This document shows positions 10,795 through 34,934 of a stretch of 34,934 nt of DNA, one piece after another. The notes below the pieces were generated by a model. The model had not been told where the DNA came from. It searched no databases and worked only from the letters and a program-made list of their open reading frames with translations. Every line of letters starts with the position of its first letter. The stretch's first letter is position 1. The stretch is taken from the NCBI GenBank assembly GCA_022826005.1, contig JAJDVT010000069.1, positions 1 to 34,934 of the forward strand, in the 5' to 3' direction. Source of the stretch: Gemmatimonadota bacterium (GTDB lineage: Bacteria > Gemmatimonadota > Gemmatimonadetes > Longimicrobiales > Gaopeijiaceae). The position numbers were made by a program, and so were the translations under genes.

Positions 10795-10895
10795 AGTCCT
10801 GCGGCCAACTACGCCGTTCCAGGCAGAACGTCCGGCGCCACGCCGCCCTCGGTGCGGCGCACGGACTATCCGCCGACCGCCAGGAGCTGACCTGC

Positions 10896-10938
10896 CATTG
10901 ACAGCATTGACATCACGATATAATGTGTGATGTCAATG
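10896..10938 (+). promoter_or_regulatory. Promoter inside an operator palindrome of the toxin-antitoxin operon
   Basis: A perfect 11-bp inverted repeat, CATTGACATCA (10905-10915) and TGATGTCAATG (10928-10938), encloses a consensus -10 box TATAAT (10919-10924). A partial extra copy, CATTGACA (10896-10903), lies directly upstream in the same orientation and contains TTGACA (10898-10903), 15 bases before the -10 box, a slightly short spacing. The layout fits autorepression by the ribbon-helix-helix antitoxin encoded 28 bases downstream, as is known for FitAB/VapBC operons. Confidence 0.7.
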
Positions 10939-10965
10939 AATGCACTCCAACGACAGCAGTGGACA

Positions 10966-11202
10966 ATGGCTCAACTCACGGTCCGTCGGCTCTCTCGTCA
11001 GATCATCGACGGTCTCAAGCAGCGCGCCGCGGCCAACGGCAGGTCCGCCGAAGCGGAACACCGGGAGATCCTGCGGCATACCCTGCTCCCCGCCGAGGGG
11101 ACGTTCGCCGAGCGGGCCCGGGCGATGCGGCAGCGTCTCGCATCCTGCATCGACAGCACCGACACGATTCGCGCGGACCGAGACCGGGACACGTTGCCGT
11201 GA
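10966..11202 (+). CDS. FitA/VapB-type ribbon-helix-helix antitoxin
   Basis: A 78-residue protein with the standard FitA-like start AQLTVRRLSRQIIDGLKQRA followed by GRSAEAEHREILRHTL, the ribbon-helix-helix DNA-binding unit. The C-terminal tail, rich in Arg and Asp, would wrap the toxin. The ATG at 10966 was chosen because family members start at this point; upstream ATG codons at 10930 and 10936 fall within or beside the operator repeat. Its stop overlaps the toxin's GTG start (GTGA), so the two are translationally coupled. It probably represses its own operon through the inverted repeat just upstream. Confidence 0.85.
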   Translation: MAQLTVRRLSRQIIDGLKQRAAANGRSAEAEHREILRHTLLPAEGTFAERARAMRQRLASCIDSTDTIRADRDRDTLP

Positions 11203-11645
11203 CCGGGTACGTCGTCGACGCGAGCGTGGCCGTGAAGTGGCTGGTCGCCGAATCCCTCTCCGAAGAGTCGGCGACGCTGCTTGACTCGGGTGTGACGCTA
11301 CTGGCGCCCGATCTGCTCTTCGCCGAAGCGACAAGCGCGCTGGCCGCCAAGCACCGGCAGGGTGAGATGAGCCCTGAACAGCTCGCCGAAGCGGTCGACC
11401 TGCTGCGTACCGCCCCGGTGGCCACACCGCTTTCAATGCGCCGGCTCGCCGCCTCAAGCACACGTCTTGCGAGCGACCTGGGGCATCCCGTGTACGATTG
11501 CTTCTACCTCGCGCTGGCGATTCACGAGAACTATTCGGTCGTAACGGCGGACACCCGCTTCCATGACAAGGTGCGCAAGCACCCGTACCTCGCCGACCGG
11601 GTGGTTCATGTCGCCGAACTGGCCGGCGGCGAGCCCGCTGGATGA
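11199..11645 (+). CDS. PIN-domain ribonuclease toxin (VapC/FitB-like)
   Basis: A 148-residue PIN nuclease with the acidic residues expected at the active site: D7 (VVDASVAVKW), E43 (FAEATSAL), D100 (VYDCFYLALA) and D118 (TADTRF). Members cut RNA in a magnesium-dependent way, often tRNA or rRNA. The GTG at 11199 overlaps the antitoxin stop and gives the family-standard N-terminus. All key residues are present, so it should be active unless bound by the antitoxin. The HEAT-repeat gene ends 26 bases away on the opposite strand. Confidence 0.88.
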   Translation: MTGYVVDASVAVKWLVAESLSEESATLLDSGVTLLAPDLLFAEATSALAAKHRQGEMSPEQLAEAVDLLRTAPVATPLSMRRLAASSTRLASDLGHPVYDCFYLALAIHENYSVVTADTRFHDKVRKHPYLADRVVHVAELAGGEPAG

Positions 11646-11671
11646 GCTCGCCCCACACAGCCGGGCGCGTG

Positions 11672-12967
11672 TCAGCCCGCCGACTCCCGCGCACCTCGCG
11701 GCAGCGTTGCGGTATCCGGTCCGGGATCCCGCGCAGCCCGCGGCAGCGTGTCGACCTCGAAGTCGGCCGCGGCTGCGGCGCGGGGTAGCGCGGCTCGCGC
11801 CTCCAGCTTTCTGATCGTGTCCGTGACCGCCCGCTCCACCACCTCCGGCACGCGGTAGCTCCGCAGGACTTCGCGAAGCCGGGGGAGCGCTTCCATCGCA
11901 TGGATCTCGGCAAGCGCCCTCGCGGCATCCACGCCGGCCGCCCCCTCGATTGCGCCCGCGAGCGCCGCGATGATCTCCGCCCGGTACTCGCCGCCCCGTG
12001 CCCTGAGGCGCGCGAAATCGCCCTCGAGCGCAGCGAGCAGGGTCTCGGCCAGCTCCTCCTCGCCCAGTCGCCCCAGAGCCTCGGCGACCCTGCCCTGAAT
12101 CGCCCGGCCTTCCGCCTCCCGCATGTCGCCAAGCAGCGGGATGAGGTGGCCGACCGCGTCCCGGTCCCCGATCTCGGCGAGTGCCTCGATGGCCAGCGCC
12201 CTGAGCGGAGCGTCCTCGTCCCACAGAACCGACGCAAGCGCCGGAACCGCCGCGGCGTTCCCCAGCCCGCCCAACGCGGCTGCTGCGTCGCGTCGCGGTT
12301 TGTTGCCATCCCAGAGCACGTACGTGTCCTCGATCCGGCCCCCGGGCGCACGCAGGCGCCGCATGTGGATCCGCACATCGTCCTCATACCCGCTGCCGTC
12401 GTGACAGAGCTCCTGCAGGACCTCGGCGAAGAGATCGAAGAGGCTCCGGAGCTGGGCGAGATCCTTGATCACCTCCTGGGCCCGGAAGTGAAGCTCGTCC
12501 ATCCCGGCGTGGAACTTGCTGAACCAGCCTTCGTGCCCCTGAACGGACAGGTGAATCCGGGGCTGGGCGTCGATGAGCTCACGGATCCTCGGATTGTCGA
12601 AGAGCCGCCACACGCGCTCCGGCGCGTTTGCCTTGATTACGAATTCGTCGTCGAAGCGCGGGTGGCCGACGTGGATATCCTGCATGCCCAGCGCCTTGCC
12701 GAGCTCCGTAAAGAGGCTGGCCCTGTAGATTTCGAACCTGAAGCCCTCCGGGTTGAAATAGGGAGCGCGGAGCCTGGTGAAGGTCTGGTGCACATTGCCG
12801 GTGCTTTGCGTGTGCGTGTCGAGCGTGATGATCCAGTCGCCCGTGCGGGCCTGGACGGCCGACTGGCCGAAGAAGCCGCCTTCGTGAAACTGCCCGTCCA
12901 CCTCGCGGGAGAGTTGCCGCCAGATTTCGTCGCGGCTCGGCCCGAAGAGGGCTTTGAGAAAGCTCAT
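11672..12967 (-). CDS. HEAT-repeat protein paired with an Hsp70-like protein
   Basis: Predicted 431-residue cytoplasmic protein. The N-terminal about 220 residues form a mixed domain I do not recognise, including DIHVGHPRFDDEFVIKAN and FSKFHAGMDELHFRAQEV. From about residue 225 to 370 there are HEAT/PBS-lyase-type repeats: RRDAAAALGGLGNAAAVPAL, APLRALAIEALAEIGDRDAV, and further helices. The C-terminus is Pro/Arg/Ala rich and probably disordered. Its ATG overlaps the stop of the Hsp70-like gene (ATGA), so the two are coupled and probably work together. HEAT arrays are protein-binding scaffolds; a client-recognition or co-chaperone role is my inference only. Confidence 0.7.
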   Translation of the reverse strand: MSFLKALFGPSRDEIWRQLSREVDGQFHEGGFFGQSAVQARTGDWIITLDTHTQSTGNVHQTFTRLRAPYFNPEGFRFEIYRASLFTELGKALGMQDIHVGHPRFDDEFVIKANAPERVWRLFDNPRIRELIDAQPRIHLSVQGHEGWFSKFHAGMDELHFRAQEVIKDLAQLRSLFDLFAEVLQELCHDGSGYEDDVRIHMRRLRAPGGRIEDTYVLWDGNKPRRDAAAALGGLGNAAAVPALASVLWDEDAPLRALAIEALAEIGDRDAVGHLIPLLGDMREAEGRAIQGRVAEALGRLGEEELAETLLAALEGDFARLRARGGEYRAEIIAALAGAIEGAAGVDAARALAEIHAMEALPRLREVLRSYRVPEVVERAVTDTIRKLEARAALPRAAAAADFEVDTLPRAARDPGPDTATLPRGARESAG

Positions 12968-14720: not shown

Positions 14721-16019
14721 ATGAATCTTCACGAACCGCTCGTAGCAACTGTAGTCGGCACAGTGCTCACCGTTGCCTCGGCACAGTCGCAGGCCCAGGA
14801 CCGGCCGCTGACCGCCGATTTCCCCGAGGTCTACCGCGTAGGCGGGCTGATGGCGGAGGACTGGGCCCAGTTCACCCGCCCCGGGCCGATGGGCTTCGAC
14901 GGCTCGGGCAATCTGTACGTCCTCGACGAGGCGGCTTTTTGGGTGATCGTCGTCGATACGAACGGGAAGCTGGTGAGGACGGTCGGGCGCCAGGGCAAGG
15001 GACCCGGAGAGTTTCAGCGGCCCGGCGACCTGGTGGTCTGGCGCGATGGGACCTTCGCCGTTCCCGACGCCGGCCACAACGCGTTCCAGATCTTCGGCAC
15101 GGACGGCGCGCTTGAGCACTTCGTCAGGATGACCGCCGAGCAGTCGCCCCTCGCGATGGACCCGGCGGGTCTTTCCCTGCGGCCCGGCCCGCGGACAGGC
15201 GAAGTGTACCGCCAGGGCCAGCCCGATGTCCTTGGGCAGGTGTTCGGTGTTCTGGGGCAGCTGTTGGGCGGGGAGTTGAGCACCTCGGGAGTCGATCACC
15301 GCGGGCTCGAGCGACTGGAACTGGGCGGAGAAGTGGCGGTTGCGGAGCCGGTCGTTGAGGGCTGGCAAGTACCCCGTGAGAAGAGCACCGGGGAATTCAC
15401 CCTGAACGACCTCGCGAACGAGTCCCGAGCCACAGATGCGATCGTCGGCTTGATGACCGACGCCGAGATGTACTTTGAGCCCGACCTGCACTGGGATGCT
15501 CTGCCCGATGGCTCGATCGCCTACTCCGACTCCTCGGCCTATCAGGTCAGGCTTGTCGCGACGGACGGTTCCCCGAGCGGCATGCTGCGGCGGCCGCACG
15601 AGCCCGAGCCGGTCACCGGGCAAATCCGATCCCGCATGATCGAGTGGGCACTTCGCGACTTCGAGGGCCAACTCGATGGCGCGGACGAGGAGGATCTGGC
15701 CCGCGCGCCCAACCTGCCTGACGCATTCCGCGAGGGATTGGTGAGCCGCGAGTTCTTCCACGAGGTGCCGGTCGTTCGCCAGGTGCGGGCCGGCTGGAGC
15801 GGCACGCTCTGGGTCCAGCGGCGCGGTGACGAGCCCTGGGATGACGACGGCCCCATCGATGTCTTCGGCGCGGATCGCGAGTACGCGGGCACCTTCCCCG
15901 CCGGCGCCGCGGAGATCCCGGCCGCCTTCGGACCCGGCGGCCTGGTGGCCTTCTGGGAGCTGGACGAACTCGATGTTCCGAGCATCGTCGTGAAGAGGTT
16001 GCCAAGGGCACTGAGATAG
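14721..16019 (+). CDS. 6-bladed beta-propeller protein, secreted (copy 1)
   Basis: A 432-residue protein with a Sec signal peptide (to about residue 26, ending SQAQ) but no lipobox. It belongs to the NHL-like 6-bladed propeller family shared by seven proteins in this window. Typical blade strands are GNLYVLDEA and [10 protein letters not shown], followed by GPGEF at 94-98. The middle carries an insert of about 60 residues rich in Gly and Val ([15 protein letters not shown]) absent from the other copies. The ATG has GGGAG about 10 bases upstream. Substrate and partner are unknown; it probably acts in the periplasm or outside the cell. Confidence 0.75.
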
Positions 16020-16931: not shown

Positions 16932-18143
16932 ATGAAGATTCGCAGCCTGGCGACTATCCCCGCACTCGCGGCGATGGCCTGTGCAGCAGACCAGGAGGCC
17001 GACCGCCCGCCCGGAGTCCGCACCGAGTTCCGCGACAGCGCCGGGATCCGCATCGTCGAGAACGCCAACCCTCCCGAGGGTTCGCGGCTGGACTGGCGGC
17101 TGGGGCCCGAGCCGCTCGTTTCGATCGGGAGAATGGAGGGCGAGGAGCCCTACCTGTTTACGCGCATCTTCGGTGCCACGATGCTCTCCGACGGGCGGAT
17201 CGTGATCGGCGACGACGGAACAAAGGAGTTGCGGGTATTCGACCGGCAGGGAAACCACCTGGAGACGTGGGCGGGGGAAGGGCAGGGGCCTGGAGAGTTC
17301 GGTCCCGTCCAGCTGTGGGGGTTGTCACCGCTGCCCGGCGACTCCGTCATCATTCTGCAATACGGTTTCGCGGAGCTCAGCGTCTACGGCCCGGACGGAG
17401 AGTTCCTGCGCCGCTTCGTGCCGGAGAGCAGCCAGCGGGACATTCAGGACTGGACCAAAAGCCTCTGGCCGCGCGATGTGTCGCGCGACGGCCTGCTCCT
17501 TGCGGTCCAGGACATGCTCTACAACGACCCTGCGGATGTGGAAGTCTGGGACGCGGCGGGTGAACTTCGGGGTTCGCTGGGGATGCACCCCGGCCGGGAG
17601 GCGATCCGCGACGGTTGGGGGACTCCCCTGGAGCCACTGATGTTCTCCCGCAACACGTTCCTGCAGGCTTGGGGCGGCCTGTTCTTCATCAGTACGAACC
17701 GCCGCTACGAGCTGCAGGGGTTCGCGCTGGACGGCTCGCTGGCCCGAATCGTTCGCCTCGACCGCCCGCCGCGCGCCCCGGCCGACGCCCACATCGAGGC
17801 GTACATCGAAGACGGACTGTCCTCGATTCCGAGTGACCAGGCAGGGCGCCGGGCGGAGCTCCGCGGGGAACTGCTCGACATGCCGGTCGCCGAACACCTG
17901 CCGGCCTTCGCCGTCTATTGGACCGACGCCCTCGATCACCTCTGGGTCTGGGAATACGAGGCTCCCGGAGAGGAAACCCCCGGCACGCTCTTTACCGTCT
18001 TCGAGCCCGATGGCCGGGTCCTGGGGTACTTCGAGATTCCGGAGGGGATGTTCATCCTGGAGGCCGGTGCGGACTACATTCTATTCCGCGTGCGGGACGA
18101 ACTCGGAGTGGAAACCGTGCAGTTGTGGCCGCTGGAGCGTTGA
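16932..18143 (+). CDS. 6-bladed beta-propeller lipoprotein (copy 2)
   Basis: A 403-residue lipoprotein; the signal peptide ends in AMAC, giving an acylated Cys17. The propeller opens with DSAGIRIVEN and PEGSRLDWRLGPEP, followed by LSDGRIVIGDDGTKELRVFD and GPGEF at 119-123. The closest relative in the window is the gene at 29508-30587, which shares these segments almost word for word. The last blade is complete here (EPDGRVLGYFEIPEG). GGAGG at 16920-16924 lies 7 bases before the ATG. It ends 32 bases from the convergent TlpA-like gene, with an AT-rich inverted repeat between them. Function unknown; probably displayed in the envelope. Confidence 0.8.
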   Translation: MKIRSLATIPALAAMACAADQEADRPPGVRTEFRDSAGIRIVENANPPEGSRLDWRLGPEPLVSIGRMEGEEPYLFTRIFGATMLSDGRIVIGDDGTKELRVFDRQGNHLETWAGEGQGPGEFGPVQLWGLSPLPGDSVIILQYGFAELSVYGPDGEFLRRFVPESSQRDIQDWTKSLWPRDVSRDGLLLAVQDMLYNDPADVEVWDAAGELRGSLGMHPGREAIRDGWGTPLEPLMFSRNTFLQAWGGLFFISTNRRYELQGFALDGSLARIVRLDRPPRAPADAHIEAYIEDGLSSIPSDQAGRRAELRGELLDMPVAEHLPAFAVYWTDALDHLWVWEYEAPGEETPGTLFTVFEPDGRVLGYFEIPEGMFILEAGADYILFRVRDELGVETVQLWPLER

Positions 18144-18146
18144 AGT

Positions 18147-18185
18147 TGTAAACTCGACTTGGCCAACTGTAAAGTTCAGTTTACA
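18147..18185. repeat. AT-rich inverted repeat between convergent genes (element A)
   Basis: TGTAAACTCGACTT (18147-18160) and AAGTTCAGTTTACA (18172-18185) pair at 12 of 14 positions around an 11-base loop. The right arm includes GTAAA-N6-TTTAC (18169-18184) and overlaps the stop codon of the TlpA-like gene. The left 14-mer occurs again at 31609-31622 on the opposite strand. It could serve as a bidirectional terminator, though no T-run is present, or be a mobile-element footprint. Confidence 0.55.
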
Positions 18186-19417
18186 TTCGGCGGATCGGCC
18201 TCGGGCTTGGTCACAGGGATGACCTCGGGTCCGGGCGTGAACCCGTCCTCCCCCAGCAACTCCACCCGTGCCTCTTCGTCGGCCCCCGTTGCCTGCAAGA
18301 TCACGTCGTAGAGCGATTCCACGCTGTGCGACCTGCCGCGCACCACCCCCTCGCGATCCACCGCGATGTAGGTGGGCACGCCTTGTATCGACCAGTCGTC
18401 GTACAGCCTGGACCGCTCCCCGACGAACCAGTTGACGTAGGGCAGATCCATGCGGTCGTCCATGAATCCCTCGACCAGCTCCACGTTCTCGTCGATGCTG
18501 ATCGTGATGACCTGGAAGTCCCGGTCGGCGAGCACCTGCTGGAGACGTTCGACATCCGGCAGGCTGGCGATGCACGGCGCACACCAGGTCGCCCAGAAAT
18601 CGAGGAGCAGCACGTTGCCGTGGTAATCGCTCAGCGACTCCTGGCCGCCGCCGACGCGCAGCGCAGTGGCCTCGGGGAGGACGGCGCCTACGGTCACGTT
18701 TTCCAGTGCGTACAGCACGGGCTCGATCGCCACGCCGCCCGGCTCACCCCGAAAGACTTCCACGTCGCTGTACTCGTCGACCACCAGTTGCGCCATGCGG
18801 GTGACTTCCTCACGTACCCGCGCACGGTCGGCCGGGGTGGACCGGAGATTGTCGACATCCATCAATCGTTCCGTGGCGGACCAGAACGCGCCCCGGGCGC
18901 GAAGCACGCGGCGGTCGCTGTGGGCGACGACGTTGTCGACCAGATCCACGCCGCGCTCCCCGCCGAAGCGGATCAGCCCCAGGAGCATCCGATTGAGCCG
19001 CAGGTCGTCGATGTAGTGCGCCTCGAGAAGTTCGTAGACGGTGTCCTCGTACCGTTGGCGCTCGGAAGCGTCGACTGAGCGCAGTTCGTAGAAGGCGAAG
19101 TGCAGAGCAAGGAAGCCCAGATCGTCCGTGGGATTCGCCCTGGCGATCCGCATCGCCGCTGCCATGGCCGGGCCAGGGTCCAGCTCCCGCAGTCCCAGCG
19201 CCGCTTGCGCGTCACCCATCGACTTGCCCTCGTTGCCCGCCTGCCTCATCCACTCGCCGGCCCGCAGCCGGTTCATCCGCTGGTCGACCTTGTAGCTCTC
19301 GACCGTCTGCCAGGCCTCGATCCGTTCGGGAGCGCCGCCGCCCGCCGAACCGGCCTCCGTGTTCGTGCAGCCCGCGAGCAGCAGCCCGGCGCACAGTGCC
19401 GTCATGATCCTGTTCAC
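18176..19417 (-). CDS. TlpA-like thioredoxin lipoprotein (413 residues)
   Basis: Lipoprotein thiol-disulfide oxidoreductase. The signal peptide ends LLLAGC (Cys17). About 230 helical residues of unrecognised type follow, then a redoxin domain from about residue 245 with the active site WC279-A-P-C282 and the cis-proline segment GVPTYIAVD. TlpA/ResA proteins reduce or oxidise envelope proteins, for example during cytochrome c maturation. The start is a GTG with GGAGG 7 bases upstream; the ATG four codons later is less well placed. The next gene upstream on the same strand, 133 bases away, encodes a second long thioredoxin lipoprotein, so they may act in the same process. Confidence 0.8.
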   Translation of the reverse strand: MNRIMTALCAGLLLAGCTNTEAGSAGGGAPERIEAWQTVESYKVDQRMNRLRAGEWMRQAGNEGKSMGDAQAALGLRELDPGPAMAAAMRIARANPTDDLGFLALHFAFYELRSVDASERQRYEDTVYELLEAHYIDDLRLNRMLLGLIRFGGERGVDLVDNVVAHSDRRVLRARGAFWSATERLMDVDNLRSTPADRARVREEVTRMAQLVVDEYSDVEVFRGEPGGVAIEPVLYALENVTVGAVLPEATALRVGGGQESLSDYHGNVLLLDFWATWCAPCIASLPDVERLQQVLADRDFQVITISIDENVELVEGFMDDRMDLPYVNWFVGERSRLYDDWSIQGVPTYIAVDREGVVRGRSHSVESLYDVILQATGADEEARVELLGEDGFTPGPEVIPVTKPEADPPNVN

Positions 19418-27098: not shown

Positions 27099-27638
27099 AT
27101 GACTCACGCCGCCTTTCTCCCGCCCGCTCCTTCCCGCTGGGCCCGCCCGAAACGCCTGCGCCCGCTCGGTCGGCGCCTCGCATGCCTGCTGGTCTCGGTG
27201 GGCGCCATCGCGCCCATCGCCTGCGACAATCTATTCTTTCCCGTGGAGACGCATGTCGTGGTGGGGTATGTGGAATTCGACGGTCCCGTTTTCCGCGACA
27301 CGGTGGAGATCGCTGACACGGTAACCGCCAATGCCGCTCTGGAGATCACGTTCAGGACAGTAGGCGGCGGCTGCCATGAGGGTGGCCATACCGACGTTCG
27401 CATGGCGGGGCCGTCAGCGATCGTGACCCCCTACGATTCGCTGCTGGTCGACCGTGACCCTCTCGCTGTCTGCACGCTTATACGCCGGAGCTTTTGGCGC
27501 ACGGTGACCGTGGTCTTCCCCGATCCCGGAACCGCTCTGGTGGAGCTTCGGTACAGCACCGACATCGGCGATAGTCCCGAGGATCACAACTCGGACGGGC
27601 GGAAGGTGTACATTGTGGAGGTGCTGTCGGCGAACTAA
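27099..27638 (+). CDS. Hypothetical lipoprotein
   Basis: A 179-residue protein of unknown function. The basic N-terminus (RPKRLRPLGRR) leads to a hydrophobic segment ending APIAC, a good lipobox. The mature part is predicted to be beta-rich, with repeated Val/Thr strands (HVVVGYVEFDGPVF, TVTVVFPDPGTALVELRY). Two further Cys residues (GGGCHEGG and AVCTL) could form a disulfide. The ATG at 27099 has AGGAG (27086-27090) 8 bases upstream, preferred over a TTG at 27081. Its stop overlaps that of the convergent small lipoprotein gene. Confidence 0.65.
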   Translation: MTHAAFLPPAPSRWARPKRLRPLGRRLACLLVSVGAIAPIACDNLFFPVETHVVVGYVEFDGPVFRDTVEIADTVTANAALEITFRTVGGGCHEGGHTDVRMAGPSAIVTPYDSLLVDRDPLAVCTLIRRSFWRTVTVVFPDPGTALVELRYSTDIGDSPEDHNSDGRKVYIVEVLSAN

Positions 27639-27916
27639 GATAGTCCGCCAGCGGTCAGCCCTCCGAGACACCTCATGCCGCCGAACCAGACGGTCTCCTC
27701 GTCGGTCAGAATGACTCTGGAGATCAGGCCGGCGCCGTAGATCGAATCGCCCTCCTGTTCGACAGTCAGGTCAAGCACCGACATGTTCGCGAGCCCGTCC
27801 GCGCGCCAGGCGCCTGTGCCCACGTACTGGCCTGCCAGGTCGGGGAACTCTTCGGGTGCGGTCGTGTCCGTGCATGCCAGCAGGGCTACCAGCAGGAACA
27901 TGCCCGTTGTTCGCAT
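27635..27916 (-). CDS. Small hypothetical lipoprotein
   Basis: A 93-residue protein with signal peptide ending ALLAC (lipobox) and a short mature domain containing LAGQYVGTGAWRADG and DLTVEQEGDSIYGAGLI, a pattern of short beta strands such as those seen in small lipocalin-like or calycin-like domains. I do not recognise a family. The ATG at 27916 precedes the signal peptide. It lies 73 bases downstream of propeller copy 5 on the same strand and may be co-transcribed with it. Confidence 0.6.
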   Translation of the reverse strand: MRTTGMFLLVALLACTDTTAPEEFPDLAGQYVGTGAWRADGLANMSVLDLTVEQEGDSIYGAGLISRVILTDEETVWFGGMRCLGGLTAGGLS

Positions 27917-27989
27917 TGTCTTTCTCCTTGGTCCACAGCCGTTCGCGGCAGCGGCGAAGCGGTAACGGGAGTGTTTCCGGAGTGCACGC

Positions 27990-29300
27990 TCAGCGCGGAC
28001 ACGGGGAAGTCGCACTCCCGACCCGGCCCGAGGGCAATTCCGGCAGATTATGGATCAGGATGCGTTCGATTTCCATCTCGTCCACGTCCCGGACGGCGAT
28101 TCGCCCGCCCTCGATGTCCAGCAGCCGGTTGCCGCGCGGCACCGTCACCCGCCCGACGGGGCAACCGAGCGGGTCGAAGAGGTACCACGGCGCGGGTTCT
28201 TCCGTCGTCGCGAACCCCGTCACCCAGACAATGCCGGCCTCATCGTCCACGGCCATGGCCCGCAGGGGGGGAACGAAGGATGGATAGGGCACCTCGTCAA
28301 GAGCCCGCCGCATCCTCGCCTCCGACCCGGCAGCGCGCCGAAGATTCGCTTCGCGGAATTCGGCGATGTCGCGATCGGTCACCGGGCGCTCGGGTGGCAG
28401 CCTGACGACGAGTTCCAGCGTTCCGTCCGCATGTACACGGCGGAACTCGCCGTTCATGCCGTCCTGCACCCACAGCAGGCCGTTTCCGAATAAGAAGTCA
28501 TGGCCCGTCGGGAAGAGGAGGGGCGCGAACATCCCCTCCCGGCTGACGTAATGAGGCTCCGCGACGACGGTCGCGAGGCCCGGAAGCCGCTCTGCGGAGG
28601 GACCCTCATCGAGGTTCACCACGCTTGCGACGACCTGGAACGGCTTGCTCAAGCTCCCCCGGTTACCTACGGGGATCATGCGGGCATTGTCCACCGCGAT
28701 CCGTACCGGCGAAAAGACGCCGATCGGGCTGATTGATGGTGACCACGGACCTGGAACGCTCGATTCATGGCTCAAGCCCGCCTCCGTCAACCGCGCCCTG
28801 GTGAGGCGATTGATCAGCCTGTCCCAAATGAAGAAAAGGCTGTCGCCAAGGCTCTGCATCCAGTCGAGGACCTCGAATTCCCCTGGTCCTTCTCCCTCGC
28901 CCCCGATGCTCGATACGAAGCGGCCGTTGCCGTCGAAGTACCGTAGTTCGTAGTCCTGGAGATCCGCGGTCACGATCCCGGCAGGCACCAGCTCCGCGCT
29001 CACGATCCACCGAAAGAAGTACTCCTCCGCGCCGTCCGCGGCCCCGATGGTGTCCACTCCCGGCGCGAAATCGATGACGGGGAAGGCTTCATCTTCGAGC
29101 AAGGCGTAGGTGACGATTCTGGTCCCCGCGCTGTCGCTCACAGTGATCATGGCGGTGTCAGCCGGTGTGTCGCATCCGACGCAGCCGATGGCGATGGCCG
29201 ACGCCAGGAGAAACGCTCGCGGACGCTGATCCCGGTGGGCACGATGCGGCTTGAGCGATCTTTGTTCCGCGAGCTCCGCTACGGGCATGCTGGCTGCCAT
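27990..29300 (-). CDS. 6-bladed beta-propeller lipoprotein (copy 5)
   Basis: A 436-residue lipoprotein. A basic N-terminus of about 28 residues precedes the hydrophobic segment FLLASAIAIGC; either Cys40 or Cys43 may be acylated. The propeller starts with DSAGTRIVTY, followed by DYELRYFDGNGRFVSSIGG and GPGEF at 138-142. It has the family's mid-domain helix (DIAEFREANLRRAAG) and full blade complement. The start at 29300 was chosen over upstream codons because the extra residues look like spacer; a second ATG 12 bases later is possible. It lies downstream of copies 6 and 7 on the same strand, but is separated from copy 6 by 207 bases that contain element C. Confidence 0.78.
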   Translation of the reverse strand: MAASMPVAELAEQRSLKPHRAHRDQRPRAFLLASAIAIGCVGCDTPADTAMITVSDSAGTRIVTYALLEDEAFPVIDFAPGVDTIGAADGAEEYFFRWIVSAELVPAGIVTADLQDYELRYFDGNGRFVSSIGGEGEGPGEFEVLDWMQSLGDSLFFIWDRLINRLTRARLTEAGLSHESSVPGPWSPSISPIGVFSPVRIAVDNARMIPVGNRGSLSKPFQVVASVVNLDEGPSAERLPGLATVVAEPHYVSREGMFAPLLFPTGHDFLFGNGLLWVQDGMNGEFRRVHADGTLELVVRLPPERPVTDRDIAEFREANLRRAAGSEARMRRALDEVPYPSFVPPLRAMAVDDEAGIVWVTGFATTEEPAPWYLFDPLGCPVGRVTVPRGNRLLDIEGGRIAVRDVDEMEIERILIHNLPELPSGRVGSATSPCPR

Positions 29301-29476
29301 CTTGCCGTTCCTTCGGTTGGGCGGGTCCCTGCAGGTCGACCCGGTGGTCGATGGTCGCAAGGTATCCGGACGCCCGGGAAGCTGGCCAGCCCGGGGACGG
29401 TTCCAACCTTTCCGGGCCCCATAATGTCTCACAGCCAAGGGGATCGGTCCCCCAACTCCCGCGATCAGGCGAACGT

Positions 29477-29501
29477 CATGTCAATTTTACAAAATGTCAT
29501 G
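29477..29501. repeat. AT-rich near-palindrome (element C)
   Basis: CATG (29477-29480) and CATG (29498-29501) flank ATTTT (29484-29488) and AAAAT (29491-29495). It lies 6 bases beyond the stop of propeller copy 6. On the minus strand it ends TTGACATGAC, the same ten bases found downstream of the M14 peptidase gene near element B. The rest of the 301-base gap to copy 5's start appears empty. Confidence 0.5.
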
Positions 29502-29507
29502 TTCTCT

Positions 29508-30587
29508 TTACTTTTCCCCGCCGCGGGTACCGTCCTGCGCCCCTCCCTGGGCCGATTGGCCCGACCGGGCCGCGGGCCTCGCCTCGAGCGGGAAGCTGTA
29601 CTCCCGCACCCAGAGGTGACCCGTGGCGTCGCTCGCGACCGAACCGTAGGCGGGAAAGTGTTCGGCCACCGGCGTCGATCGGGCCTGGCGGCGTATTTCG
29701 TCGGGGGCGGTCCCGGGACGGGCATTCTCTTCGACATAAGCGAGCACCTCTGCCTCCGTCGGTGCACGCAACTCGTGACCACGCCGAACGATTCGGGCAA
29801 GCCTGCCGTCCGTGGTGAACGCCTTCAACTCGTAGCGGAAGTTCGTGCCGACGATTACAAGATCGTTCCACAGTGTCAGGACCGACCCTCTCCGGTAGGC
29901 CGTGGCCCGTGTCGTCCCGCTCCGCTCCGAGCCCGGGTGCATCCCCAGCGAGGTCAGCAGCTGGCCCTGGCCGCCTCTGAGTTGCAACTCGATCATGCTC
30001 TCATCGTCGGCAATTCCGGCGACGAGGATCGCCCCGTCCCTCGTGACGGACAGCGGATTCCATCGGAAGCCGGGGGTAGTCGCGTGGTCCGCCAGGGCGA
30101 ATGTGCGCTCGTAGCTGCCCTCCGTGTCGAAAACGGAGATGCCCGAACCCGGTGCCCTCCATGCCGCGATCGAATCGCCCGGCCACGGCCACAACGTCAG
30201 GAGGCGCTCGAATTCGCCGGGTCCTTGGCCCTCGCCTCCCCGGCTCGTCAAGTGACTTCCCCGGGCGTCGAAGAACCTGAGTTCGTGCGAACCGCCGTTC
30301 GCCACCACGATTCGCCCATCGCTCAACCTCATCGCATCGCGGACAAAGTACAGCGTGTACGGGTCTTCGCCGTCCACCTCCCCGATGGACAGGTCTGGCT
30401 CCGGGCCGATCCGCCAGTCCAGCCGCGAGCCTTCGGGAGGGCGGGGGTTTTCGACGATGCGGATTCCGGCGCTGTCGCGGATCTGGACGGCAGAGTCGCC
30501 GATGGACGGGTCGTCCGACTGGCAGGCCACGGACGCCAAGGCGACGAGGACGGTTGCGGGGGAGATCGATCTGGCGGCCGTGCCCAT
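29508..30587 (-). CDS. 6-bladed beta-propeller lipoprotein, last blade missing (copy 6)
   Basis: A 359-residue lipoprotein with signal peptide ending ASVAC (Cys22). It shares DSAGIRIVEN, PEGSRLDWRIGPEP, LSDGRIVVANGGSHELRFFD and GPGEF (122-126) with copy 2. Similarity holds to HLWVREYSFP near residue 330; then, where copy 2 goes on with a full final blade of about 50 residues, this one has a low-complexity Gly/Gln/Arg tail and stops. The truncation point lies next to the AT-rich element C. The ATG at 30587 is 2 bases after the upstream gene's stop, with GGAGG 8 bases before it, so it is coupled to copy 7. It may be folded incompletely or non-functional. Confidence 0.75.
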   Translation of the reverse strand: MGTAARSISPATVLVALASVACQSDDPSIGDSAVQIRDSAGIRIVENPRPPEGSRLDWRIGPEPDLSIGEVDGEDPYTLYFVRDAMRLSDGRIVVANGGSHELRFFDARGSHLTSRGGEGQGPGEFERLLTLWPWPGDSIAAWRAPGSGISVFDTEGSYERTFALADHATTPGFRWNPLSVTRDGAILVAGIADDESMIELQLRGGQGQLLTSLGMHPGSERSGTTRATAYRRGSVLTLWNDLVIVGTNFRYELKAFTTDGRLARIVRRGHELRAPTEAEVLAYVEENARPGTAPDEIRRQARSTPVAEHFPAYGSVASDATGHLWVREYSFPLEARPAARSGQSAQGGAQDGTRGGEK

Positions 30588-30588
30588 C

Positions 30589-31518
30589 TCAGCCCTCCGG
30601 CCGCCAGACATCCAGGACGGTCACGCCCGAATCGTCCTTGCGCTCGGAGACGATCAGGCCGTCGTTCGTGAAGCCGGTGCCGACCCATGGGAATCGCTGG
30701 CTTCTCAGGACCAGACCGCGATCCGGATCGATCACCTCGACAATCGTGTCGCGACGCCGCTCGTCCACGATCAACCCCACATGGTCTACAGGAGCCCATT
30801 CGGGGTCGGCGAGCGTGACAAGCGTCCAGATCAAGCCTTCTTCATCGATGTGAACAGCCATCAAGTACGGTGGGGCGGGTTCCCTGGCAGGGTCCAAGGG
30901 GCCTTCCACCTCCCTATCGGGGAACCACTCTGCCTCGCGCTTCAGCACTCTCAGCAGGGTCCCGTCCGCGGCATACTCGGACACTTCATATCGATCGGGG
31001 CGCCCGGCCCAGACGGTCATCCCCGCGGCAACGAGACGCCGCTGATAGGCAGACGGCCTGAACTGGAGGATCGGCCCGGCCGGCACCAGGGGGCTGGCCG
31101 ATCCGTCAGGCCGGATCACATGCATGATGTATCCGGTAGCGGCCGCCGTGTGCTCGCCCCCGGCCACGACGAGGGTGCCGTCGTCGAGCTGGGCCATGTC
31201 GTGCGGATACGGATTGATCGGGAGCAGCTGTGTGCGGGCCACGGAGCCGTCGGCGTTCAATACCGTCAGTCGCAAAACCGATCCGTCCAGCACGCCCAGT
31301 GAGTCTCCACGAAGCACCATGAGTCTTCTGATGGTCCCATACTCGCCCGGGCCCTCGCCTCGACCGCCCCACACGGAATCGAGGGTGCCGTCGGAGCCGT
31401 ATACCAGGATGGACTGCGCAGGACGAGGCCAAAGACCGTTACGACACGCAATCAAAGCGGACAGAAGGGCGAGCGCAGCTGCGAAGATGATCGGATTGGT
31501 CTTCATTGCTCGCGCCAT
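30589..31518 (-). CDS. Short 6-bladed beta-propeller lipoprotein, first blade mostly missing (copy 7)
   Basis: A 309-residue lipoprotein with signal peptide ending ALIAC (Cys25). Right after it comes SILVYGSDGTLDSVWGG and GPGEY at 56-60; in the other six copies this motif lies at 94-142. The opening part of the propeller, including the DSAGI-type segment and first strands, is therefore absent, while the rest is normal to VSERKDDSGVTVLDVW. The start could also be the ATG at 31506. Its stop is 2 bases before the start of copy 6. Either a compact variant or an internal deletion that kept the signal peptide. Confidence 0.72.
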   Translation of the reverse strand: MARAMKTNPIIFAAALALLSALIACRNGLWPRPAQSILVYGSDGTLDSVWGGRGEGPGEYGTIRRLMVLRGDSLGVLDGSVLRLTVLNADGSVARTQLLPINPYPHDMAQLDDGTLVVAGGEHTAAATGYIMHVIRPDGSASPLVPAGPILQFRPSAYQRRLVAAGMTVWAGRPDRYEVSEYAADGTLLRVLKREAEWFPDREVEGPLDPAREPAPPYLMAVHIDEEGLIWTLVTLADPEWAPVDHVGLIVDERRRDTIVEVIDPDRGLVLRSQRFPWVGTGFTNDGLIVSERKDDSGVTVLDVWRPEG

Positions 31519-31605
31519 AAGAGGAAGGGGATCTTCGTCAGCTTGGATATTTTGGCTGCGGCAAGTGGTTGCTCACACGGTCATGTCAACTGCGCCTGAC
31601 AGAAC

Positions 31606-31622
31606 GTAAAGTCGAGTTTACA
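31606..31622. repeat. AT-rich palindromic element (element B)
   Basis: GTAAA-N6-TTTAC (31606-31621), 3 bases after the stop of the M14 peptidase gene. On the minus strand it contains the same 14-mer, TGTAAACTCGACTT, as element A's left arm. Beyond it on the minus strand, TTGACATGAC repeats the end of element C. Confidence 0.5.
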
Positions 31623-31624
31623 CT

Positions 31625-33274
31625 TTAGCCCCCCGGCACCCTCAAGATCGGATACAAGCCCCCAGCCTCCAGCCGATCCGCCAGGAACCCCCAGTTCGCG
31701 AACCCGTCGTCGGACTGGGGCTCCAGCAGGCTGAAGAGCAGGCGGCCCAATGGCAGATCGGCGCTCGCCCACATGTCTCCGGGGGCAGGGGTCACCTGCG
31801 TGGGCTCGTACCGCCCGAAGAGCGTCTGCTCGTTGCGCCCCTGGAACGGGCGAGCGGAGGTCCTCACCGAATCGATGTGGAACGCCTCTACATCCAGCGG
31901 CGCCGCGTCGGCCGGCTCGAACCAGACACCGTGCGCGGCGAGGCGGGTCAGGACATCCTCGAGCTCCGCGGGGATAAGGTAGCCCCGGGGCACGCGCTCG
32001 CTGAGCGTCGGCGTGAACGTCCCGTACTCGTACATGGGCACGACGTACTGGGTGTCGGCGCGCAAGAGCAGAGGACGGCCCGTGAGCGGATGCGCCTCCT
32101 CGACCGTGGCGCCCATGAGGATGTCGACCCGCTCGGCTGACCGCTCTGGAACGGCACGAAGCGCAAGCGATTCACCCACCACGGACGCGGCATCGGCCTC
32201 CGCGACGATCTGCCGCACCTCTTCCCCGTGCTCGTGCACGTAGTCCAGGATCTCCTCGACGAAATACAGCGTCGCGAGCACGCGCTCCTCGAAGGTCGCG
32301 TAGGAATAGGCCTCGCTCAGGATCGCGATCCGGTTGCGCAGGCCGATGTAGTTGTTGTTGAAGCGGGGGCGGTGGTCGAAGGTGTACCAGCCGCGCTCGC
32401 CTCCGCCGCGCGCGGACGCGTTGCCGTAGTAGTAGAACTCCCAGCCGTACTTGTCCCGGATCTCGCCGGTGACGTGGGGAAAGAGCCCGTCGCGCAGGAA
32501 GGCGTCGATGGCCGGGGGCGTGTTGGGATGGAGGGGGGGCGAGTAGGTGAGATGGTAGGCGTGCTGCGTCCCGTTCGTCGTGTGCAGATCGACGGCCACG
32601 TGCGGATCGTATCCGCTGAACAGCCGCGCTACCGACCGCGCTTCGGGCGACTCGAGCTTCATGTGATCGCGGTTCAGGTCGTAACCCTGGGCGTTCGGGC
32701 GCTGGCCCATCCCGCCGATCGGCCCATGCTGGCGGCCCCGATTGGTGAGGGTCACCCGCTCATTGCCGTCCGCGTTGTAGATGGGCGCGATCAGCAGGAC
32801 CATCGACTCGCGCCACTCCCGGTGTTCACCGGCGAGGAGGTCGCGGAGCAGCATCTGGAGCGCCTCCTTCCCGCACACCTCGCCGGCGTGGATGTTGCCC
32901 TGCAGGTAGACCACCGTCTTGCCGGAAAGCCAGATGGATGCCGCACTCGGATCCGGGATGTCGCCGACGATGGCCAATGGGAGCGCCCGCCCCTCGGTCG
33001 TATAGCCGAATGTCGTGTAGTGGACCGACGGCGAGGCGGCCGCGGCGCGCTGGAGGAAGTCCACGACCTCGGCGTGCGAGCTGGTTTCCCGGTAGTCGGT
33101 CCGCTCGGCGCGGGTGAGGAAGGCGTCGTCCGGGGGCGGAGACGGGTTGCAGGCGGTGAGGAGGGCCGCCGCCGTCAGTCCGTGTGCAAGTCCCCGGGTG
33201 CATCGAGAGCGACGGGGCGACGGCTGGGCCGCCGGGCGATCGGGAGTCGCAGTTCCAGTGTTCGAGGTCGCCAT
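31625..33274 (-). CDS. M14-family zinc carboxypeptidase lipoprotein
   Basis: A 549-residue envelope peptidase. After a basic N-terminus the signal peptide ends LLTAC (Cys42). The zinc site is H129-A-G-E132 with the distal H231 (VDLHTTNG), and E321 (ILSEAYSY) fits the general base; NRDH at 201-204 provides the Asn-Arg substrate-binding pair. These residues define carboxypeptidase A-like enzymes that cut C-terminal residues. The C-terminal about 170 residues form an accessory beta-rich region. The ATG at 33274 is the only good start. Three propeller lipoproteins follow on the same strand, suggesting an envelope peptide-handling context (inference). Confidence 0.85.
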   Translation of the reverse strand: MATSNTGTATPDRPAAQPSPRRSRCTRGLAHGLTAAALLTACNPSPPPDDAFLTRAERTDYRETSSHAEVVDFLQRAAAASPSVHYTTFGYTTEGRALPLAIVGDIPDPSAASIWLSGKTVVYLQGNIHAGEVCGKEALQMLLRDLLAGEHREWRESMVLLIAPIYNADGNERVTLTNRGRQHGPIGGMGQRPNAQGYDLNRDHMKLESPEARSVARLFSGYDPHVAVDLHTTNGTQHAYHLTYSPPLHPNTPPAIDAFLRDGLFPHVTGEIRDKYGWEFYYYGNASARGGGERGWYTFDHRPRFNNNYIGLRNRIAILSEAYSYATFEERVLATLYFVEEILDYVHEHGEEVRQIVAEADAASVVGESLALRAVPERSAERVDILMGATVEEAHPLTGRPLLLRADTQYVVPMYEYGTFTPTLSERVPRGYLIPAELEDVLTRLAAHGVWFEPADAAPLDVEAFHIDSVRTSARPFQGRNEQTLFGRYEPTQVTPAPGDMWASADLPLGRLLFSLLEPQSDDGFANWGFLADRLEAGGLYPILRVPGG

Positions 33275-33356
33275 CGGTTCACCGCGCCTTTCCGTGGGGT
33301 GGGATGCGTGACGGTGCCGACCATAAGGTACACCGTGGCCATCAATCGCGCGCTTC

Positions 33357-33770
33357 CTACCGCAGTTTGAGTGTCTCAGTGAAGTCCGCAGGCGTCACGA
33401 TCTTGATGCCACGGAAAGGGTCCAGGGCCAGAAGATCCGCGTCACCGGTGACGATAACGTCCGCCTCCCCGTTGACGGCCATCTCCAGCACCTGATCGTC
33501 CTTGGGGTCTCGACATGCGTGAACCGATTCACGAATCTCAACCAGGTGGGCCATGCGGACGAACTCAACGAGGAAACGCTCGCGCTGATCGGGTTCCACG
33601 TACCGGTTGAACTTCGGGCGCGAAAGGACATCCTGTAGTTCTGTCAGGAATGCCGCGGATGTAAGGATCCTCCCGCTGTCCAGCGCGTGCAGGAAGGCAA
33701 GACCCGGCTTGGAAGCGTTGAAAAGGAGGGCGCTGACGATAACGTTGGTGTCGAAGACATACCGGGTCAT
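33357..33770 (-). CDS. PIN-domain toxin of a toxin-antitoxin pair
   Basis: A 137-residue PIN nuclease of the type annotated as putative toxin component, PIN family: D7 (YVFDTNVIVSAL), E44 (FLTELQDVLSRPKF), D92 (DPKDDQVLEMA) and D110 (TGDADLL) form the expected acidic site. The ATG at 33770 overlaps the antitoxin stop (ATGA), so the pair is coupled. It is a different subfamily from the VapC-like toxin at 11199. All catalytic residues are present. Confidence 0.85.
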   Translation of the reverse strand: MTRYVFDTNVIVSALLFNASKPGLAFLHALDSGRILTSAAFLTELQDVLSRPKFNRYVEPDQRERFLVEFVRMAHLVEIRESVHACRDPKDDQVLEMAVNGEADVIVTGDADLLALDPFRGIKIVTPADFTETLKLR

Positions 33771-33988
33771 CAAGCGTCGAGAATGGAGCGCAAGATCTCC
33801 GGGGTAAGGCCGCGCTCCTGTGCGCTGCGGCTGACCTCTTCCATGATTTCGCGAAGGGACTTGCTGCTACTCGTGGCTTCCCGTAACCGGAGATTGACGA
33901 GGACATCCAGTTTCCGGCGATCGCGAGCCGAAACCGTCCTGTAGGCCTGCGCCACATCCGCATCCACTGCAACTGTGATTGTGTCCAT
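33770..33988 (-). CDS. Antitoxin partner of the PIN toxin
   Basis: A 72-residue protein starting DTITVAVDADVAQAYRTVSA, then RRKLDVLVNLRLREAT, and a helical C-terminus that would bind the toxin. The first strand followed by two helices fits a ribbon-helix-helix DNA-binding protein. The ATG at 33988 is used; a TTG directly before it is an alternative, with GGAG about 9 bases upstream. Position and overlap with the toxin support the assignment more than the sequence itself. No clear operator palindrome was seen upstream. Confidence 0.7.
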   Translation of the reverse strand: MDTITVAVDADVAQAYRTVSARDRRKLDVLVNLRLREATSSSKSLREIMEEVSRSAQERGLTPEILRSILDA

Positions 33989-34235
33989 CAATGTTTCTCC
34001 AGTCCTTGCTCACCCAGTCACGGCCCTCCTGATTTGGCCGCGTGCCACACATGGGGAAGATTGCACGGGCAGGAGGCATGTCAAGGATCCGCGCCCTTGC
34101 GGTACCGACCTCGGCAGTCGTCGCAATCCAGGCAACCACCTCAGTTCGTACACTGACAGACAGGAACGTTGGCGACCAATGGGCACCTGAACCGGTTTTC
34201 GATACACTCAGATGGCCATCAACAAGGAGTGATTC

Positions 34236-34848
34236 ATGAGGCGCACCCTGCGGACCGCGGCAATCACCTTCGCGGCACTCCCGGCAATCCTCGCCATCTC
34301 GGTTCGCCAGGGCACGGGAGCTGCCGAAGCCGGCGGAGGGGGAGGACGAGTCGAAGCTGCTCACATTCATGCAGGCCTTCGAGGGCGAGCCCTACGGGAT
34401 CGAGTGGACGACCGACGCCCGCATCTCGCATCTGGAGATGACCAACGACATCACCCGGCCCGGCGCCCTTCCCCTCGTCGACATGGAGATCGACGGCCAG
34501 ACCGTATCGCTCGTGCTCGACACCGGCGGCGACCGGCTCTACCTAGACAGGGACATCTACGCGAGCCTCGGGCTCGCCACCCTCGCCAACCGTCGCATCA
34601 CGCTGCGCGAACGCACTCCCGACGCCCTCGCGCAGGTCATGGCAACCTTCGGCGACACCCCGCCGGTCGAAGCGCCCTTCTTCATGACGGGCACGCACCT
34701 CATGGTCGCGAAGGGCAGCCTGAACGGCAACGAAGGCATCAACTACTTCATGGATTCGGGGCTCGCGATGAGCATGCCCATGATCGTGGTCGACGTGGAC
34801 CTGCCCCGCTTTCACGGACGATTAGTTCTTGGGGTTGATAGTGTGTGA
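34236..34848 (+). pseudogene. Aspartyl-protease-like protein, frameshifted and cut short
   Basis: The signal peptide (RRTLRTAAITFAALPAILA) is in one frame starting at the ATG at 34236, with AAGGAG 8 bases upstream. The protein then continues in another frame: EDESKLLTFMQAFEGEPY, followed by the retropepsin-like motif VLDTGGDRLYLD. Removing one G from the run at 34338-34342 joins both parts into a single frame, so this is a one-base frameshift (or a sequencing error). The second frame ends at 34848 shortly after VDVDLPRFHG, where the composition changes abruptly, so the C-terminal half is lost or displaced. Function: secreted protease-like protein, probably inactive as it stands. Confidence 0.6.
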
Positions 34849-34934
34849 TTTGGTTTGTGCTTTCGCCCTTCCAACGGTGGAGAGGGGCAGCGAGCGACTC
34901 TGGAGAAGCGAGCGAGGACGAGAAGTCCGGAGAG
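34815..34934. other. Composition break and G/T-rich edge sequence
   Basis: From about 34820 the sequence turns AT- and T/G-rich with stops in the protease frame, then becomes purine-rich with two AGCGAGCGA copies (34891-34899 and 34910-34918). No coding frame is seen. It may be the end of an insertion running off the window. Confidence 0.4.

Follow-up and report, generated by a model that had tools for sequence, protein, structure and literature searches.

Background

Copy 6, a gene for a 6-bladed-propeller-like protein of 367 amino acids (29508..30611, minus strand), lacks about its last 53 codons and ends at a palindromic sequence, which raises the questions of how the 3' end was lost and what the palindrome is. 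The gene lies in a stretch of 34,934 nucleotides from a Gemmatimonadota bacterium (GCA_022826005.1, contig JAJDVT010000069.1), hereafter called the window. Its neighbors, all on the same strand, are a single-copy M14 zinc carboxypeptidase gene that served as an anchor (31625..33274), a short propeller-like gene, copy 5 (30589..31518), between the peptidase and copy 6, and the propeller gene next downstream, copy 7 (27990..29300, with an in-frame ATG at 29300). An intact propeller gene, copy 2 (16932..18143, plus strand), encodes 403 amino acids. The first-pass annotation had described copy 6 as following copy 2 up to the final blade and then ending in a low-complexity tail, had attributed the loss to a deletion or insertion scar marked by a near-palindrome 6 bases after the stop, and had proposed that orthologous loci be compared for an intact 3' end. 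We asked whether the loss is derived and whether the palindrome is a scar.

Loss of the 3' end of copy 6

The description of the coding sequence was confirmed by an alignment of eight sequences, in which copy 6 was 43% identical to copy 2 and 60-61% identical to the orthologues from genomes G098 and G153, and could be aligned up to about residue 347; beyond this point the seven other proteins ran on for about 50 residues, while copy 6 ended in ARSGQSAQGGAQDGTRGGEK. A Pfam search of copy 6 returned no family, PF17170 (6-bladed beta-propeller) included; copies 2, 5 and 7 matched PF17170 below the cut-off and the gene at 14721-16019 matched it above the cut-off. Copy 6 was placed among the propellers because of its identity to copy 2. 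AlphaFold models, both built on the eight sequences, had five strands after residue 340 in the intact orthologue from genome G098 (pLDDT 76, pTM 0.77) and only the tail after this residue in copy 6 (pLDDT 65, pTM 0.59). Since the sequence of these five strands is missing from copy 6, the closing blade and part of the preceding one are absent.

A search for the copy 6 protein across 23 genus genomes listed no match, self excluded, that extended beyond query residue 351 of 367; nearly all stopped at or before residue 349, and the reading frames of the matches continued past the point where the similarity to copy 6 ends. None of the matches listed from these 23 genomes was an orthologue with the tail of copy 6. 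Two loci were orthologous by context, G098:C103 (L110, L212) and G153:C152 (L109, L232). In both, the M14 peptidase (85-87% identity) stands beside a copy 6 orthologue (60-62%), and the same G098 contig also carries the thioredoxin gene (75%), copy 7 (56%) and copy 2 (60%). The proposed comparison gave a clear result: the DNA homology of copy 6 to the two orthologues breaks at position 29571 and both keep an intact 3' end, so the loss in copy 6 is derived. The closest relative, G064 (93% identity in the peptidase), is colinear with the window apart from the absence of 27964-31558, a segment that holds copies 5, 6 and 7 and the palindrome, and is therefore uninformative on how the 3' end was removed.

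The non-homologous 3' end of copy 6 (29508..29571, minus strand) encodes a 20-residue low-complexity tail closed by a TAA codon at 29508-29510. A DNA-level comparison of this tail with the lost blade revealed no similarity (p=0.15). A stretch that may be left over from the last propeller strand, DPLGCETLWGPER, lies downstream in another frame (29407..29445, minus strand). Its similarity at the peptide level had p=0.005 against resampled DNA, and 2 of 117 tiles, the region itself among them, scored as well or better; at the DNA level it was not significant (p=0.61). The last strand may, at the peptide level, survive downstream of the palindrome, a point kept as unproven; if so, the event would have been a replacement or decay, not a clean deletion.

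The dN/dS ratio was 0.35-0.41 between copy 6 and its orthologues as compared with 0.28 between the orthologues, and 0.15-0.17 for the peptidase. The gene is therefore not drifting freely and its constraint is at most relaxed, which argues against reading copy 6 as a pseudogene. By itself, the truncated propeller is a minor gene-decay event.

A double-dyad element at the stop codon

The palindrome is part of a 39-bp element that consists of two 18-bp dyads, TGTNA-N8-TNACA, with a 3-bp spacer, so that their starts are 21 bp apart. The copy at the end of copy 6, designated site 2 (29474..29512, minus strand; dyads 29474-29491 and 29495-29512), has 2 mismatches and contains the copy 6 stop. The position first given for the near-palindrome, 6 bases after the stop, was incorrect: the TAA is within the element, and the inner 23-bp near-palindrome (29478-29500, 8 of 11 positions paired) begins 8 bases past it. 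With up to 3 mismatches allowed, this inner 23-mer had no matches in 100 shuffles. When the same genome was searched with the copy 6 stop region, only the AT-rich part was hit, by dozens of short matches.

Double dyads were defined as two TGTNA-N8-TNACA dyads with exactly 3 bp between them and up to 2 mismatches. Three are present in the window and none occurred in any of 100 first-order Markov resamplings. The single dyads of the window, with up to 3 mismatches, numbered exactly six, in three pairs with starts 21 bp apart. Site 1 (18147..18185) lies 3 bp past the copy 2 stop and also holds the stop of a thioredoxin/redoxin lipoprotein-like gene (18176..19417, minus strand), the last 20 or so residues of which run into the site. 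This C-terminal extension corresponds to 18176-18247, and the G098 orthologue ends earlier; the thioredoxin gene, like copy 6, takes its stop from a double dyad and has an altered C-terminus. Site 1 is kept in G064, though only 25 of 39 bases agree. Site 3 (31584..31622), 2 bp past the peptidase stop, was found in this genome and G064 only: 18 of 20 peptidase orthologues had no site there and, among 37 loci from named genomes, it was present only in the G064 record.

A spacer scan over 395 kb (the window and stretches of contigs C81 and C3) detected 26 double dyads with the 3-bp spacer and 0-4 with every other spacer from 0 to 12. Genome-wide there were 183 double dyads (up to 2 mismatches) and none with the reversed control. 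The number per genome was 30-270 in 22 of the 23 genomes of the genus, and G193 had none. When 200 genomes were drawn from the phylum, single dyads (up to 1 mismatch) numbered 24-114 in 14 of 15 other genus members, 0 in G193 and 0-12 in the 184 genomes from outside the genus, for which controls gave 0-9 and the largest counts were in the most distant family. Among 121 family genomes scanned, 10 of 11 from the sister genus, g4, had 1-6 double dyads (control 0) and the other 87 had 0-2 each. The element is almost confined to one genus. One double dyad in a sister-genus genome (G210:C232:25-63) is identical to cores of a miniature element, or MITE, in the window's genome (L055, L069) and represents either contamination or transfer. 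No description of the double dyad was found in titles and abstract openings of the literature on the genus, on related element types and on molybdate regulators.

Pairing was analyzed in 109 distinct sites. Between the half-sites of a dyad there was no excess pairing (z -0.3 and -1.8), the dyad centers had z values of -2.4 and -3.3, and pairing over the whole 39 bp was weak (z 1.4, with 2.3 for its inner pairs), with G2, C17, G23 and C38 constant or nearly so. Given this lack of covariation within dyads, we take the element to be duplex DNA rather than a hairpin. At the gathering score, Rfam gave one match in L035, L001 and L199, a small SRP RNA, and none at a site or MITE. A hairpin or RNA element was ruled out by the missing dyad covariation together with the lack of an Rfam match at the site.

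A candidate regulator

There are three sets of conserved sites in g4. One of these, site B, precedes an operon that encodes a regulator (HTH_3/HTH_31 and PBP_like domains), modA and modB, the last two above NCBIfam cut-offs, and did so in all four g4 genomes fetched. One of the 37 sites in genome G067 precedes the orthologous operon, modC included, and in the window's own genome, where modC is also present and the regulator gene is at L313:8766-9869, minus strand (G000:C26), a site lies 67 bp upstream of the likely ATG. The distance from site to regulator was 38-105 bp upstream, depending on the ATG chosen, in six of six operons, an ascertained figure since all of the operons (this genome, G067 and four g4) were found via their sites. 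The number of operons common to three site sets expected by chance was 0.004-0.011.

PDB matches to the helix-turn-helix of the regulator were CylR2 and a member of the PbsX family, and an XRE fold was assigned on this basis. The occurrence of the same element before the regulator operon, together with this resemblance, makes the regulator the best candidate binder. The element is most likely the dispersed operator of the XRE-type HTH_3-PBP_like regulator, which we infer to bind it, and would have spread partly inside a MITE. A scan of genes next to the sites, 27 of them upstream and 20 downstream, revealed no shared theme; this incoherence counts against the operator reading and led us to reject a plain regulon.

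Judged by eye, a gene in the window (3675-5702) joins a GPP34-like domain to one that resembles cytochrome P450. The mod operons of G000 and G067 likewise have a GPP34-like gene upstream, again identified by eye.

Position of the sites and alternative explanations

The positions of sites were surveyed in 762 kb of this genome, of which 395 kb was chosen without regard to sites and 367 kb lay around sites, with our own gene finder. The 50 sites classified were distributed as 9 in MITEs, 36 in other gaps and 5 inside predicted genes. Tandem gaps held 27 of the 36 non-MITE intergenic sites, convergent gaps, in which an operator controls no start, held 5, a point against the operator reading, and divergent gaps held 4 (for depletion, p=0.15 relative to the number of gaps and p=0.02 relative to their bases). 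All 37 sites were classified in G067; 29 were intergenic (18 tandem, 6 divergent and 5 convergent) and there was no depletion from divergent gaps (6 of 29, p=0.67); the idea of such a depletion was rejected. Sites that start between -12 and +5 bp from a stop codon numbered 16 of 36 in this genome compared with 10.9 expected from gap sizes (p=0.011), 5 compared with 4.2 expected among the intergenic sites of G067, and 16 compared with 10.0 expected in three genomes under a null conditioned on gap size (p=0.008). A strong stop-codon rule was considered, as a first null gave 9% versus 12 of 26 sites, and rejected: the gap-size null weakened the preference and, with a modest excess here and none in G067, a strict rule is unsupported. 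Elsewhere in this genome, a tandem array of secreted ankyrin-repeat genes of about 1,100 amino acids (G000:C3:75900-109900; L124-L126) includes several genes with a double dyad 2-13 bp past the stop.

These counts bear on the explanation that the element is a REP-like or terminator-like 3' element, selected at gene ends, and that the truncation is incidental. Each of the three sites in the window overlaps or borders a stop codon, the excess near stops in this genome points in the same direction, and the REPs of E. coli are also near stops (PMC12306157). However, no terminator-like site (a G+C stem followed by a T run) was found in 27500-34900, covariation for a hairpin is absent within dyads and weak over the element as a whole, and the sites of G067 have no stop preference. 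We consider this explanation unlikely.

A second alternative is that the double dyads are recombination or cassette-boundary sites and that gene shuffling at one of them cut copy 6. When the window was compared with G064, three of three comparable sites were no more than 90 bp from an indel boundary: the 3.6 kb absent from G064 begins 25 bp beyond site 3, copy 2 is missing from it at 90 bp from site 1, and a double dyad in G064:C24 stands at the position of the PIN-domain gene region of the window (10795-11692). However, sites and whole-gene indels both lie in gaps, so that their overlap may be trivial and was not counted as evidence, no recombinase was linked to double dyads, and two 18-bp dyads on one helix face are not, to our knowledge, a usual crossover site. 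A cut by gene shuffling is thus decidedly unlikely.

The scar explanation, in which a mobile element (an IS or MITE) entered the 3' end of copy 6, decayed and left its end behind, gains some support from a large family of MITEs in this genome. These are about 250 bp long with inverted ends, TAGCAGYCCGTGGATAA and TTATCCACGGGCTGCTA (L035:2890-3138 and at least 40 other places; a first look in this genome gave 163 candidates, of which 40 were scored), the double dyad is the core of part of the copies, and the core in the window has its place among these relatives (E=1e-6). The MITE was present in 23 of 23 genus genomes. In G193 (L129-L158), which has the MITE and neither dyad core nor bare sites, the 14 copies aligned all lack the approximately 77 bp that hold the dyads, and one copy in the window's genome (L073:1081-1270) likewise lacks the dyad core. 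Another copy (L016:2958-3210) is upstream of an rplL-like gene (ribosomal protein L7/L12, by eye). A MITE origin of the copy 6 tail was suggested by a weak alignment and ruled out by an anchored profile alignment, in which the match between the flanks of site 2 and the MITE profile extended no further than 5 bp on the left, as at most bare sites, and was not significant on the right (p=0.16); clear MITE copies had left-hand scores of 45-155 or right-hand scores of 50-102. Site 2 is bare, without MITE arms or inverted terminal repeats, as are sites 1 and 3, which are beside intact genes. On inspection, no insertion sequence was noticed at site 2. An invasion of copy 6 by a mobile element is thus very improbable. 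The part of the original proposal that holds is the loss, which the two intact orthologues indicate to be real and derived; the palindrome, one of 183 dispersed elements, two others of which adjoin intact genes, is neither an IS end nor a MITE scar.

There is only a slight chance that an assembly or binning error joined two sequences at 29571. The genome is metagenome-assembled, in 143 contigs with 3.92% contamination, and the junction was confirmed by no relative, G064 being without this stretch, but past the junction there is a proper genus-type double dyad and then copy 7, which has its orthologue in the same G098 cluster. An ancestral short form, with copy 6 never having had the last blade and the orthologues having gained it, is hardly credible: no point was found in its favor, copies 2 and 7 and both orthologues have the same C-terminal strands, and all other listed genus matches continue in frame.

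Discussion

The explanation that we prefer is that copy 6 was truncated and now ends in a dispersed double operator of the mod-operon regulator; as a whole, we judge its chances to be evenly balanced. In this lineage the 3' part of the copy 6 coding sequence was lost; the ancestral sequence beyond 29571 is either gone or unrecognizable, and the frame now runs on for 20 codons and stops at the TAA of the 39-bp element, the presumed double operator. With starts 21 bp apart, the two 18-bp dyads would lie on the same face of the helix and could bind one regulator dimer each, side by side. In the sister genus, with 1-6 copies per genome, the operator would be mostly a local control site. In the genus of the window it would have spread to 30-270 positions per genome, some of them MITE cores and most of them bare sites in gaps between genes. 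The bare sites would be occupied by the regulator, and the site and the truncation may have arisen together, a link drawn from a single case.

Several known systems resemble this arrangement in part. The tandem operators of XRE or lambda-type repressors also consist of adjacent 17-18 bp dyads a few bases apart with variable centers, and the candidate binder here is of the HTH_3 type. These repressors have a few sites in each phage or regulon, whereas here there are 30-270 sites per genome, mostly outside divergent promoters. As in ModE-type control of modABC, the regulator adjoins modABC and presumably senses an oxyanion, through its PBP-like domain. However, ModE has a LysR-type HTH with molybdate-binding domains, while the present regulator combines HTH_3 with PBP_like, and has another operator and genome-wide dispersal. 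The stoperators of cluster A mycobacteriophages (PMC9283540) are likewise many repressor-type sites spread across a genome, but they are asymmetric sites in phage genomes, to which the repressor binds as a monomer, in contrast to the paired symmetric dyads, putative binding sites, of a bacterial chromosome. REP/BIME elements (PMC12306157) are also short extragenic palindromes and often lie just past stops, near which double dyads are in modest excess in this genome but not in G067; the double dyad differs in having no hairpin covariation, conserved half-sites and free centers.

A broader and more tentative proposal, which we hold to be possible but doubtful, is that the operator of a molybdate-operon regulator escaped local control and was amplified in one genus, partly via a MITE, until it occupied up to 270 positions in a genome. 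A single XRE protein that senses a ligand would then coat gene boundaries throughout the chromosome as a roadblock or domain marker, and genes such as copy 6 would borrow their stop codons from the operator. If the dispersed sites are bound, this would be an unusually clear case of the passage from a local operator to a genome-wide array within one genus, for which G193, with a MITE that has no dyad core and with no bare site, and the sister genus, with only 1-6 sites, provide the comparators. In that case, the way in which a transcription factor passes from local to global action would be open to direct test.
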